A stretch of 64,000 nt of DNA from NCBI GenBank assembly GCA_001914405.1, contig MSDW01000001.1, forward strand, positions 1,429,169 through 1,493,168, given 5' to 3'. Below are positions 25,317-33,334 of the stretch, in pieces. Source of the DNA: Candidatus Methanohalarchaeum thermophilum. Its GTDB lineage: Archaea > Halobacteriota > Methanonatronarchaeia > Methanonatronarchaeales > Methanonatronarchaeaceae. The stretch's first letter is position 1. Every line of letters begins with the position of its first letter. The translations under genes were made by a program, and so were the position numbers. Under the pieces are notes generated by a model. It ran no database searches. It was not told the DNA's origin and worked only from the letters and a program-made list of their open reading frames with translations.

Positions 25317-26238
25317 TAAATGGGTGTGGGATGAGTATTCAATCGCTCTTGTACAGGTATGAGGCCGACCTGGCTGAAGAGAGTAGGGAGCAACTATAAA
25401 AGCACTTTGAGATACACAAAAGCATCTACGACAAGGTGTTACAAATTTTAAATGGTTCAGATGGTTGGATAGGGAGATATGAGGTGTATAGTAGGTTGCA
25501 GGAGTGGAAAAAGACATTGAATCCCGAGCCAGAATTTGTGCTTGAAGGCTGGTTAGCAGGGAATTGGAAGAGTGTATGATGCAGTCAAGGTCTTGAGTAC
25601 AAAAAAAGGGGAGGGAGAAAAGGTTGGATAGACTGCGGTGTAAGAATTAGATTAGTAGCATTGAGTATAATCAGTTAGGGTTTAAGATAGACCAAGAAAT
25701 CGAAATCATATACCTATCAAAGGTAGGGAGGGATGTCTGTGAACTTCCATAGGCCAATCCCTAAAGACGCTAGGGCCAAAGGCTTAGTAATGAAGGGATA
25801 TGGTTGTGGTGCTGGAAGGTCCTCCTCCAGCTAGAGTTGCCAAAACCCGACAAACAATCGATTATGGAGGATAGTGTTGTAGTAGGAATGGATCTAAATG
25901 TATCTAATTTCTTAGTCGACAGCGAAGGCAGAGAAATACAGAACCTAAAGACTATACTGACAAGGAAGGACTTGAAGACTATGTTGGTGAGCAAGTTTGT
26001 AGAGGTAGAGTTAAGGAATACTACTAGGAGTTGCTCAAATCTAGGTTGTGGTAATGAGGTGGATAAGGAGCTATTGAGTAGGGTGTACGAGTGTAGGGAA
26101 TGTGGTTTGGAGATTGACCGAGATTTGAATGCAGCCACAAATATTGTGAGTAGGGGGTATATAGGTAGGGCTTGTCTGAAGTCAGAGCCCTTGTACACAT
26201 TGGCCTCTGCTGGAACTAGTTATGTTCCAGTAAGTTGA
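25317..26238 (+). pseudogene. tnpB: Broken tnpB (IS200/IS605 OrfB, TnpB family)
   Basis: The C-terminal part (about 25858-26238) is clear: GMDLNVSNFLVDSEGREI resembles the RuvC-I strand, the zinc-finger Cys pairs occur as SCSNLGCG and YECRECGLEID, and the RuvC-III DRDLNAATNIV motif is intact. The segment between RuvC-I and the zinc finger is far shorter than normal. Upstream, 25317-25690 reads as TnpB N-terminal-like sequence with in-frame stops (MSIQSLLYRYEADLAEES...). No tnpA is present. The gene cannot make an active RNA-guided nuclease. Confidence 0.8.
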
Positions 26239-29809: not shown

Positions 29810-30979
29810 CTAATTTAGGCTTTTTGTTATCTCGTGGGTTTTACTTAAATTTTCTTTATTGATTACTAGGTTTTCTCTGTTTTGTTTGATCGTTTTGAAG
29901 GCGTGGTCTATGATATCTTTGTAAAATTGGCAGTAAGGACTCTTTGAATTTAGCGTTTCTTCAGATTCGTAGACTTCTGCAGGGCAAGAAGCACCACATA
30001 GATGCCTGTATTCATAGTTCTTGCACTCTTTTATGTCCTCTGTTTTTCTACTAATTACATCTTGGAAAGCGTCATCGTTTAAAGCCTTATCTAAATCCGT
30101 TTTGAACTCTTCTATTCCTATAAATTCAGTACAGGGATAAATTCCATTTGATGTTATAGAAATAAATCTTCTTCCAGCTCCACATGGAGATATATCACAC
30201 TGTAGATCCCTCGAAGTAAGTGCTATAATTCCTAGTACTATATTTGCGTAATCTCCGATCGTGATTTTATTTCCATTCTCAGTTAATTCCATTGCTCTTT
30301 CAACTGCATTGAGGAAATTTTCGGTTAAATTATTTGGTCTTAATCTTCTTCCTACTTCTGTCGTTCCTCTAACTGGATTCATTAAAATTGTTTTGGTATA
30401 TTCTGAGAGTAATTTGACCATATCTACCAATAGGTGTTCGTTGAATTTGTTTATAGTTGTTATTATGTTTAAAGTATCGTAATCTTTGAATTCTTCTAAT
30501 ATAGATAAAGTATTTTCGAAATGTCCATTTACCCTTAAGTAGTCGTTCAATTTCTTTTTTGGAGCGTCAAGTGATACTCCAAAATTTACTTCTTTGGTTT
30601 TTAAGTACTCTATATCATCTTTTTCTAATTGTAAACCGTTTGTTTGGATACCGTAATTGAATTCTGGAAAATCTTCAATTCCCTCAAAGATTAGATTTTT
30701 TTCTATTAACGGTTCTACACCATGAAATAGTACTGTATTAACATTGTTTTCACTTAATTTATTTAAAACATCGTAAAATTCTTCTTTAGTGAAGGAATCT
30801 CCGTTTTTTCTTTTTTCCTCAGGTACATAACAGTAGGGACAGTTCGCGTTACATTTCTCCGTAATGTTAAAATATACATACTCGATGTCTTTTTCAAATC
30901 TATATCTTTCCAGAGCCTCTTCTAATTCCTTTTTCTCGCTTGAATAATCTGAAGCTTCTCTAAACCAGTAGAAACCCAA
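29810..30979 (-). CDS. Radical SAM/SPASM peptide-modifying enzyme (CbpB-like)
   Basis: The N-terminal radical SAM cluster motif is CNANCPYC (C43, C47, C50 from the TTG start at 30979). The C-terminal SPASM region is Cys-rich: CDISPCGAG, YPCTEF, ECKNYEYRHLCGASCPAE and SPYCQF, binding extra Fe-S clusters. The layout is that of RiPP maturases. The frame extends upstream without ATG to a stop; an ATT at 31015, 9 nt after GGAG, may be the true start and would add DTFYDPDLGFYW-type residues. A 19-residue peptide gene lies immediately upstream. From memory it resembles the CbpB (cobopeptide) family; that needs an HMM check. Confidence 0.85.
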   Translation of the reverse strand: MGFYWFREASDYSSEKKELEEALERYRFEKDIEYVYFNITEKCNANCPYCYVPEEKRKNGDSFTKEEFYDVLNKLSENNVNTVLFHGVEPLIEKNLIFEGIEDFPEFNYGIQTNGLQLEKDDIEYLKTKEVNFGVSLDAPKKKLNDYLRVNGHFENTLSILEEFKDYDTLNIITTINKFNEHLLVDMVKLLSEYTKTILMNPVRGTTEVGRRLRPNNLTENFLNAVERAMELTENGNKITIGDYANIVLGIIALTSRDLQCDISPCGAGRRFISITSNGIYPCTEFIGIEEFKTDLDKALNDDAFQDVISRKTEDIKECKNYEYRHLCGASCPAEVYESEETLNSKSPYCQFYKDIIDHAFKTIKQNRENLVINKENLSKTHEITKSLN

Positions 30980-31039
30980 ATCAGGATCGTAAAATGTATC
31001 TTCTTTTATCCAAATTCTTTTTTACTCCTTTAATGAATT

Positions 31040-31063
31040 AAAAGGGGAAGTTTTCCTCCTTTT
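31040..31063 (-). promoter_or_regulatory. Hairpin between peptide and radical SAM genes
   Basis: On the minus strand AAAAGGAGGAA pairs with TTCCCCTTTT to give about ten base pairs with a mismatch, beginning at the peptide stop codon. It would make the peptide more abundant than its enzyme by partial termination or by mRNA protection, as in other precursor-maturase operons. Confidence 0.45.
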
Positions 31064-31121
31064 ACACAAAGTGAGTTAATCCGCCTTTTTCTTGGTCACA
31101 GGTGTATCTTTCGTACTTCAT
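31062..31121 (-). CDS. 19-residue Cys-containing peptide, likely precursor of the radical SAM enzyme
   Basis: The frame reads MKYERYTCDQEKGGLTHFV and stops. A GGTG 6 nt before the ATG may serve as ribosome site, and a TATA-like ACATATAA lies about 65 nt upstream. The single Cys and the short length fit a precursor for the SPASM enzyme encoded about 50-80 bp downstream. I recall the CbpA (cobopeptide precursor) family as similarly short; this match is from memory. The next upstream genes are the corrinoid-type methionine synthase pair. Confidence 0.65.
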   Translation of the reverse strand: MKYERYTCDQEKGGLTHFV

Positions 31122-31338: not shown

Positions 31339-32313
31339 TTAGTATTTTTCTCTAAGTTTACTTGCTGCTTTAACCATGTTACTTAACTTTTGGTACGCTT
31401 TCTCTCTAGGTAATAGTTTTAGACCACAGTCAGGGTTAACATATAAATTACTTGGTTCAACAATTTCCAGTCCTTTTTTGATGTTATTAACTATTTCTTG
31501 TACGCTTTCTACATTTGAATCGTGAACATCTACGCATCCCAATCCCAGTTCTCGCGTGAAATCGTATTCCTTGAAAACAGGTAAAAACTCGAAGTTATTA
31601 TTTACAAATTCCAATGAGAATTGATCAACATCGAAATTAAGTATATCAGGATATATCTTATCGAATTCACCGTAACAAGCATGCATGATTATCTTTTCCG
31701 CATTAACTCCTTTTACGACTTTTGAAGTAGCTTCTTTAACTAAATTAACTTCATTGACCTTGGTTGAAAGTGCTGGTTCATCAATTTGGATATATTCTGC
31801 ACCTGCGTCTACTAACCTCTTTAACTCTTTGTTTATTATCTCTGCTAGCTCCATCACTAACTCTTTTCTATCGTATATCTCGTTGAAAGACCAATCTGCA
31901 ATAGTGTAAGGACCAGTAATAGGGATCTTAACTTCCTTTTCGGGGGATTTTACATCTTTAATAAAATTAAATTCATCGACTAACATTGGGCCTGGATCCT
32001 TCAGTTCCTTAACCACACTTGGTTTGTTAAAATAGTTATTACCCCAGACTCTGACTGGGCCATAGAACTTGAATCCTGGTATTTTTTCAGCGAAGAACTC
32101 AACCATCTCTTCTCTTCTCATTTCTCCATCATTTAATATGTCAACACCTGCTCTTTCGTGTTCATCTACAATTAATCGAGATGCATCATCCAAAGCTTCA
32201 TTTAAATATTTTTTATCTAAATTTTCTTCTTTAAAGCTTTCTTTACTCTTATTAAGCCACTTAGGTTTAGGATAACTTCCTATGATCGTAGTTGGGAAAA
32301 GCTTATTCTTCAT
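31339..32313 (-). CDS. metE: Core cobalamin-type methionine synthase (MetE C-terminal family)
   Basis: About 324 residues, the catalytic MetE barrel without the folate-binding N-terminal half. Zinc ligands are visible: His and Cys in IIMHACYGE, a Glu in LEFVNNN, and Cys in [24 protein letters not shown] opens the domain. Characterised archaeal core enzymes take the methyl group from methylcobalamin or a corrinoid protein. I chose the ATG at 32313 (GAGGTG 9 nt upstream) over GTG 32325. It overlaps the upstream paralogue by 11 bp. Confidence 0.85.
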
Positions 32314-33265
32314 CGCCTTTGACACCTCTTTTTATTTCTCTTAAGAGATCAAGCTTTTTCTTCATCACATCCCAAGGTAAAAAATCTAAGCCGATATTGG
32401 AAGAAATAATAATTTCCTCAACTGATGATTCTTTTTCAATTTCGTCTATCTTACTTAAAACTTTATTTTTTTCTTCGATTTTGGTGTTCCAAGAGTCAAT
32501 AAGACCTAGTTGCAGTTTTTTTCCACCATACTCTTTTATAGCTTTCCAGTTACTACCTTGGTCTACTAAATCTAATCCAATCCAATCAAACAAGTCTAAT
32601 AAGATGGGATATCTCTCGTAGATGCTACCAAAATAAGTATTTAAAATTAATTCACAATCTGTCTTGGATGAAATCTCCTTATATATCTCAAGATATCGCT
32701 CTTCGTGTTTTTTAGTTAAGGAAGGTTCATCTAATTGCACAAATCGAACTCCATCTTCTTCAATTCGATTAATCTCATCTATCAAAATACTAGAGAAATC
32801 TTTCATCAACTCAATTCCGTTTTCGTAATATTTGTTATCTACCAAATCCAGAAAAGAAATAGGCCCAGGTAAAATAAACTTAAAATCACCTATGCTCCCA
32901 GTATCTATTATTTGGCTTGTAGAAACCAAGTCACCAGTTTTATTTAACTCACCCTCTATAACAGGTTTTCTATAAAATCTATTGGTTGAATAGTACCTAA
33001 TCAATCCATTCATCTCTACGCCACTCAATTGAGTGCATGGATAGGCCAATAAATCATCCCATGTCAACTGACCAGTTGTTAATAGATCTATATTAGCTTC
33101 CTTTTGTAAATTAATCACTTCCTCCCTAGCTCTATTTAACTCGTTTTTTACCTCCTCAATTTCTCCCATACTTTCTTTCTGGTGCCCAGTAACATCCTTT
33201 AATTTCTCTCTAAGATAAGATGGTCTAGGAAAAAATCCAGAGGTTGATGTTAACACTTTACTCAT
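32303..33265 (-). CDS. MetE-like paralogue lacking zinc ligands
   Basis: About 320 residues with the MetE barrel pattern ([38 protein letters not shown]). The zinc-binding His-x-Cys is replaced by LNTYFG and the last Cys region reads [10 protein letters not shown]. It therefore probably cannot activate homocysteine alone and may serve as a partner, analogous to the MetE N-terminal domain. The start is the ATG at 33265 with AGAGGG; a TTG lies at 33283. Translationally coupled to the catalytic gene. Confidence 0.75.
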
Positions 33266-33334
33266 ATTAATCCCTCTTATCAAATCATATTACATCAAAA
33301 TTAATTTTTTCATAAAATAAAAACGAAGTTAGAT

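Follow-up and report, generated by a model that had tools for sequence, protein, structure and literature searches.

A CbpA/CbpB-type peptide and radical SAM enzyme pair in Candidatus Methanohalarchaeum thermophilum with three unusual changes

The 64-kb stretch of the Candidatus Methanohalarchaeum thermophilum genome analysed here (the window) encodes a CbpA-like peptide and, immediately downstream on the same strand, a radical SAM/SPASM enzyme of the CbpB family. Like other CbpB enzymes, this one passes the curated family cut-off and adjoins a CbpA-type peptide; unlike them, it lacks a canonical start codon at the aligned position, carries tyrosine in place of one SPASM cysteine, and sits on the longest branch of its tree. 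The peptide, in turn, is cut short by an in-frame stop codon. We lean towards the reading that this copy was taken up by the host, probably a halophilic methanogen, from an Archaeoglobi-like donor, was functional for a long time, and is now eroding.

The peptide, the enzyme and their relatives

The peptide gene (31062-31121, minus strand) encodes the 19 residues MKYERYTCDQEKGGLTHFV in a coding span of 31065-31121, followed by a TAA stop at 31062-31064. The enzyme gene (29810-31015, minus strand) comprises 401 codons, counted from an ATT, and a stop, and these codons contain no internal stop or frameshift. The original prediction of a 19-residue Cys peptide directly upstream of a SPASM-type radical SAM enzyme is thus borne out by the coordinates and by the match of the enzyme to TIGR04163 (CbpB), which reaches 397.1 bits against a cut-off of 375 when scored from the TTG at 30979. 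The kinship with CbpA and CbpB also holds for the peptide: in the profile comparison proposed as a check, its sole match in NCBIfam is TIGR04164 (CbpA), though its 16.9 bits lie below the cut-off of 35. This cut-off is a weak test of CbpA membership because most homologous peptides scored also fall short of it: five of six lie below, and the sixth scores exactly 35 bits. When 41 genomes, many of them without CbpB, were searched with the TIGR04164 profile, one gave a match over the cut-off. The Methanohalarchaeum peptide is called CbpA-like here, not a member of TIGR04164. In the host genome, a TIGR04164 search at E up to 10 returned one match, the 19-residue peptide itself, and no second CbpB over the TIGR04163 cut-off was found. 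The score of the enzyme, together with this sole CbpA match, indicates that the pair is genuine.

Like CbpA, the peptide lies upstream of CbpB and contains the core Cys...GL[T/S]H[Y/F] present in archaeal and bacterial relatives, here in the form Y-T-C-x5-G-L-T-H-F. Scanning near the enzyme start with the expression C(x)3-8[GAN]L[TS]H[YFM] recovered the core on the same strand in 107 of 120 loci, a set in which certain genomes appear twice. Since the expression demands the Cys and L-[TS]-H, their invariance in these loci is by construction; position, strand and distribution across phyla are the independent signs of a core-motif peptide. The pairing of peptide and enzyme is beyond chance, because the peptide is the sole TIGR04164 match in its genome and the core recurs beside the enzyme at this frequency. 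The conservation of the small frame near orthologous enzymes, on which the original prediction had staked itself, is therefore observed.

Among the 13 loci without a core in the scan, the sequence ends close upstream in L092, L106, L109 and L113, that of L102 contains N, and the core is present on closer reading in L128 and L137. In L084, L125 and L131 the core was not found in the stretch read. L084 and L131 are Thermodesulfobacteriota CbpB loci without a CbpA core within 450 bases before the frame start, and their precursor may lie elsewhere or be of a different type. In the draft genomes of L057 and of L019/L060 (apparently one locus), a frameshift breaks cbpA in two, and the enzyme frame of L057 is likewise incomplete; the split precursor frames may represent decay or assembly error.

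The tails that follow the core differ by group: they end in ...SPF in most archaea and ...ALF in ANME-1, take the form VMYGDVPKKKMPL and its kin in Nitrospirota and Omnitrophota, and have basic ends in Thermodesulfobacteriota and their neighbours. In a phylum sample, 40 of 392 genomes contain CbpB at E up to 1e-60, 39 of them over the cut-off. Named genomes yielded 463 stretches with a relative in a tblastn scan (E up to 1e-3), not necessarily all CbpB, and the best 80 of these come from Archaeoglobi, ANME-1 (Methanophagales), Methanolliviera, Hydrothermarchaeota, a Bathyarchaeote, Omnitrophota, Nitrospirota, Thermodesulfobacteriota and other groups. No CbpB relative was found in the two other genomes of the same class that were examined (93% and 78% complete), and none of seven pattern matches in viral contigs is a relative.

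The radical SAM CxxxCxxC motif of the enzyme (Cys55, 59 and 62) is kept in all 96 aligned sequences. A structure predicted with AlphaFold2 from a 28-sequence alignment reaches pLDDT 87.4 and pTM 0.88. Its closest solved fold is CteB (5why; Z 31.7, rmsd 3.4 over 342 residues, 22% identity), followed by anSME (4k38, Z 30.9) and ChlB, all above Z 30 and nearly tied, so that the predicted fold supports a peptide- or protein-modifying SPASM enzyme. Like the ranthipeptide (thioether) maturases CteB and PapB, CbpB is paired with a Cys-containing peptide as its putative substrate. Unlike them, it has only ~45 residues before the radical SAM core, its archaeal CbpA substrate is almost leaderless, and its chemistry is a predicted one. 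PapB (NF047865) is the second-best NCBIfam model for CbpB, at 92 bits far below the cut-off of 340. With anSME, CbpB shares the SPASM domain and, in alignment, the same Cys spacing (EECKKC...C...C), whereas anSME is known to modify sulfatases and not a small peptide.

Anatomy of the three changes

The first change concerns the length of the precursor. Relatives have ~25 residues or more, which makes the 19-residue peptide abnormally short. Across 86 distinct precursors, the core is followed by 7-16 residues in 85 and by a single residue in the Methanohalarchaeum copy, which, unlike CbpA, is without the C-terminal tail. The in-frame TAA (31062-31064) stands at a codon that is ATG (Met) in the closest homologue (L053/L058). 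Past it, and still in frame, lies a tail relic (31038-31061, minus strand) that reads KEENFPF and then TAA. Taken together, V, the first TAA codon and KEENFPF make nine positions, a tail length found in 32 of the 86 precursors and more often than any other, and the relic has the PF end of most archaeal tails. In 39 distinct PF-ending tails, the last three codons vary synonymously (e.g. CCC 22, CCA 10, CCG 5, CCT 2), which argues that the tail end is kept as protein in the relatives. Because the relatives all have a tail, and its PF end is conserved as protein, the in-frame TAA is a derived state.

The hairpin that had been noticed between peptide and enzyme is present at 31039-31064 (minus strand). 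It has the terminator-like form TAAAAGG(A)GGAA-AAC-TTCCCCTTTTA, then AATT, with a predicted -9.9 kcal/mol and z -2.6 against 200 base shuffles. A consensus terminator scan also picks it, with one site against 0.6 expected, which is not above chance. The junction of L053 holds a stronger hairpin (-16.3, z -3.9). A template switch that copied the right hairpin arm onto the left could have replaced the Met codon by TAA in a single step. The idea that an RNA hairpin is generally conserved at the cbpA-cbpB junction was considered and rejected, since folding clearly better than that of shuffles was seen in only some of the archaeal relatives. An Rfam search of the window at gathering scores gave no match. 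In a larger predicted fold (31004-31090, minus strand), the LTHF codons of cbpA pair with the GGAG before cbpB (-17.2 kcal/mol, z -1.79, 10 of 200 shuffles equally good), and the matching fold at the L058 junction has z 0.14. This pairing is weak evidence for a possible translational coupling of cbpA and cbpB.

The second change affects the enzyme start. The reading frame is open from 31021 to 29813 on the minus strand, and the putative start is an ATT (31013-31015) preceded at 9 nt by a GGAG (31025-31028), the likely ribosome-binding site. The ATT aligns with the ATG of ATG-TGG-ATT in L058, which begins ATG-TGG-ATT-GAA where the Methanohalarchaeum copy reads ATT-TGG-ATA-AAA. In the 28-enzyme alignment, the other 27 all have a canonical start there or nearby. 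Within its initial 70 codons, the frame offers a single ATG, GTG or TTG, the TTG at 30979; starting from it would lose a nearly invariant D-P pair, and inspection found no ribosome-binding site before it. Family-matched genes elsewhere in the window have canonical starts near their profile starts, with the exception of a TnpB-like fragment. This frame of 144 residues (25804-26238, plus strand) carries a TnpB/Cas12f1-like C-terminal domain (PF07282) and is apparently incomplete.

The third change lies in the SPASM domain, where a TAT codon (30014-30016, minus strand) places Tyr334 at the second Cys of the C-x2-C found elsewhere. Of eleven Cys columns across 96 enzymes, ten are complete in every sequence, and Cys334 is present in 95, with Tyr in the Methanohalarchaeum copy alone, which consequently has less than the full set of family SPASM cysteines. 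In a profile alignment, Tyr334 corresponds to the second Cys of the C-x2-C-x5-C-x3-C motif in both CteB and anSME; the matching residue of anSME, Cys320, is a ligand of the second auxiliary cluster. The replacement makes 'CbpB homologue' the fitting label for the protein, rather than 'working CbpB'. Passages of PMC8326336 describe an open site near the substrate on one auxiliary cluster of CteB and auxiliary clusters essential for modification in several such enzymes; by analogy, the loss of a Cys ligand in the Methanohalarchaeum CbpB could matter.

The substitution is not the only one at a conserved position. In the 28-sequence alignment, drawn from the 40 enzymes first identified, the Methanohalarchaeum copy departs at four columns that are invariant in the other 27, namely G162V, P266L, V325T and C334Y, and the other enzymes show 0-3 such departures. 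In the 96-sequence alignment, which omits L057 and any sequence identical over its last 200 residues to one already included, it departs in five of 63 near-invariant columns and the others in at most two. Only P266L and C334Y among these five are unique to it; W16Y and F256Y are common to L058, and P343S to two other enzymes. The original prediction was right in layout, assignment and kinship but missed the truncation, the missing canonical start and the lost SPASM cysteine, and in view of these three changes a working precursor and maturase are not to be assumed for this copy.

History and present state of the Methanohalarchaeum copy

The closest homologue of the enzyme is L058, from Archaeoglobus sp. 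JdFR-37 and on the same contig as L053. A maximum likelihood tree (quick search, LG+G4, midpoint root), in which rows with long branches are placed unsurely, makes the Methanohalarchaeum CbpB the sister of L058 (SH-aLRT 100) among Archaeoglobi, on the longest end branch of 96 (0.67 vs a median of 0.13). Differences along this branch at codon positions 1, 2 and 3 amount to 0.188, 0.125 and 0.587, and the matching test on L058 gives 0.112, 0.065 and 0.527. This pattern indicates purifying selection on cbpB for most of the branch; third positions appear near saturation, which makes a mild relaxation of selection undatable, and 401 codons without stop or frameshift imply that any decay is recent. 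Purifying selection and the position within Archaeoglobi together suggest that the enzyme was probably acquired, worked, and is recently eroding or has been remodelled. Dating the transfer by composition was rejected because the measures are uninformative: the GC3 of cbpB (0.27) and its acidic content do not stand out in the window, and the closest Archaeoglobus homologue is just as acidic. The lack of stops in the other genes of this comparison is by construction, since open frames were selected for it.

Several observations stand against erosion. The enzyme scores over the family cut-off, is free of stops and frameshifts, keeps its CxxxCxxC motif and yields a good model (pLDDT 87.4), and the peptide core, the part common to all groups, is intact. 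Adaptation to high salt could explain both the long branch and the unusual residues, which arose in part before the split from L058. The judgement of decay comes from one assembly of one strain.

The reading that we place after erosion, as possible but clearly less probable, is a working, streamlined variant in which the 19-residue peptide is sufficient, the tail is a dispensable follower, and the enzyme is made from the ATT with an auxiliary cluster that is open or ligated by Tyr. The features common to all groups precede the TAA and the tails vary between groups, and the TIGR04164 match covers profile positions 5-19, ending at 19 in five of six homologues scored as well. The purifying selection along the cbpB branch and the hairpin kept around the TAA are compatible with it, and low, coupled expression would be in keeping with the pairing of LTHF and the ribosome-binding site (-17.2, z -1.79). 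However, each of the 85 other distinct precursors carries a tail, whose PF end is conserved as protein in 39 of them, and the loss of a Cys held by the 95 other enzymes, alongside G162V, P266L and V325T, resembles relaxed constraint. The erosion of a once functional pair remains the reading ranked most likely.

It is unlikely that sequencing or assembly errors hide a true gene in which the stop is a sense codon, the start an ATG and residue 334 a Cys. The sequence comes from a single assembly, ATT and TAT are each one base from the expected codon, and the two other draft-genome loci with frame-split precursors are possibly errors of this kind. Against errors, the TAA shares no base with the ATG that the closest homologue has there, although L052 has at that position a Leu TTA, one base from TAA. 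All three changes are substitutions and none is an indel, and family-matched neighbour genes cover their profiles, except for the TnpB-like fragment.

Readthrough or recoding of the TAA into a full 27-residue peptide is very unlikely, even though the tail is in frame with its own stop and two PylS genes of the host score over the cut-off (two PylRS in HMET1 are described in a passage of PMC9071458), because the single tRNA-Pyl found, beside one PylS, has the anticodon CTA and reads TAG, so that TAA should act as a genuine stop. No tRNA-Pyl was found by the other PylS, UAA decoding in the experiments covered by that passage required an anticodon changed by its authors (PMC9071458), adding X and the tail brings the TIGR04164 score to 15.9 vs 16.9 bits, no gain, and the hairpin alone could account for the kept CCCTTT part.

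Cobalamin and cobalt neighbourhoods and the possible role of the family

Genomic neighbourhoods place the bacterial pairs among genes for cobalt uptake and cobalamin synthesis. Two gene orders recur, cbiM-cbiN-cbiQ-cbiO-cbpA-cbpB-cbiD and cobS/cobD/cbiP/cbiB-cbpA-cbpB-cbiA, in which neighbour clusters are named from one NCBIfam representative each, some of them (e.g. cbiG-like) below curated cut-offs, and the cbiN label is our own, given to a small frame beside CbiM that was clustered with CbiM. A same-strand cobalamin or cobalt gene adjoins the pair, no more than 1.5 kb upstream or 0.6 kb downstream, in 37 of 48 loci from bacteria and in 4 of 32 from archaea, all four of them cobT, with loci assigned to bacteria or archaea by us from sequence names. 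A looser count of cobalamin clusters within ~6 kb (47 of 81 loci) is an upper bound. Members of clusters 1 and 2 by L062, L065, L066 and L071 are doubtful, and the one by L065 has no NCBIfam match at E up to 1e-12. As background, none of 27 MoaA loci in such bacterial genomes has a cobalamin or cobalt gene within ~1.5 kb; this is the sole fair figure from the control, since its 30 genomes were all picked from loci with cobalamin genes and the corresponding CbpB figure (29/30) is biased. The cbi and cob neighbours suggest the origin of the family name 'cobopeptide'.

The B12 link is thus strong in bacteria, weak by archaeal copies and absent by the Methanohalarchaeum copy, beside which no cobalamin genes were found. 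Upstream of this pair are two MetE-type genes; downstream are a malate/lactate dehydrogenase, a Gate-domain protein, NikR and, further on, HypB. The host encodes CbiM (281.9 bits, over the cut-off), a CbiD-like protein (106.9 bits, below the cut-off of 200) and CbiX elsewhere, all more than 500 kb from cbpA-cbpB, which makes it a probable cobalamin producer. The MetE-type methionine synthase genes adjoin one another (31339-33283, minus strand) and form a split MetE, an arrangement that part of PMC7857596 describes in Methanonatronarchaeum and Methanohalarchaeum.

In L078, L093, L098 and L119, a divergent protein of ~300 residues faces cbpA-cbpB-cobT, and a fifth member occurs in L073; it is found in ANME-1, Methanolliviera and a related archaeon. 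An identification as NikR was rejected, as the representative has no NCBIfam match at E up to 1e-12. Its N-terminus has, by eye, a ribbon-helix-helix look, making it a candidate regulator.

For the intact family, we infer a radical-modified peptide that serves cobalt or cobalamin supply in anaerobes. In the proposed mechanism, CbpB would bind SAM at its CxxxCxxC cluster and generate a 5'-deoxyadenosyl radical, which would abstract a hydrogen from the GL[TS]H[YF] motif of CbpA or from a nearby position. The conserved single Cys of CbpA, perhaps bound to an auxiliary cluster, could then close a thioether cross-link to a residue of this motif. With its His and sulfur ligand, the modified peptide would lend itself to holding cobalt or nickel on the way from importer to chelatase, or might instead report cobalt status. 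A possible functional analogue is CobW, the cobalt metallochaperone of late-insertion B12 synthesis, which likewise would deliver cobalt near the chelatase step. Unlike CbpA and CbpB, CobW is a GTPase, and it has no sequence relation to either. PMC10206600, moreover, describes the early-insertion route, as tested with CbiK, as independent of any such metallochaperone; this argues that the CbiK system can do without a carrier, and a role as buffer or sensor is just as open.

A combined reading would make CbpB-matured, cross-linked CbpA a cobalt-handling peptide (carrier, buffer or sensor ligand) of early-insertion anaerobic B12 synthesis, with the 19-residue form and the Cys-ligand-less maturase showing tail and ligand to be dispensable; we regard it as rather unlikely.

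The statement of the original prediction that product and function are not established agrees with literature searches by family and model names (TIGR04163, TIGR04164, cobopeptide), which, with partial coverage, found no paper on the pair. The family, already modelled by NCBI, is widespread and little studied, and the present analysis adds a comparison of the core motif across phyla, the B12/cobalt neighbours and the anatomy of an aberrant copy. As a natural mutant, the Methanohalarchaeum copy points to the tail, the start codon and one SPASM Cys as testable features. Bacterial pairs often sit between cobalt-importer and corrin-ring genes, and if the pair handles cobalt, it would be an extra step in the feed of cobalt to B12 in anaerobes.
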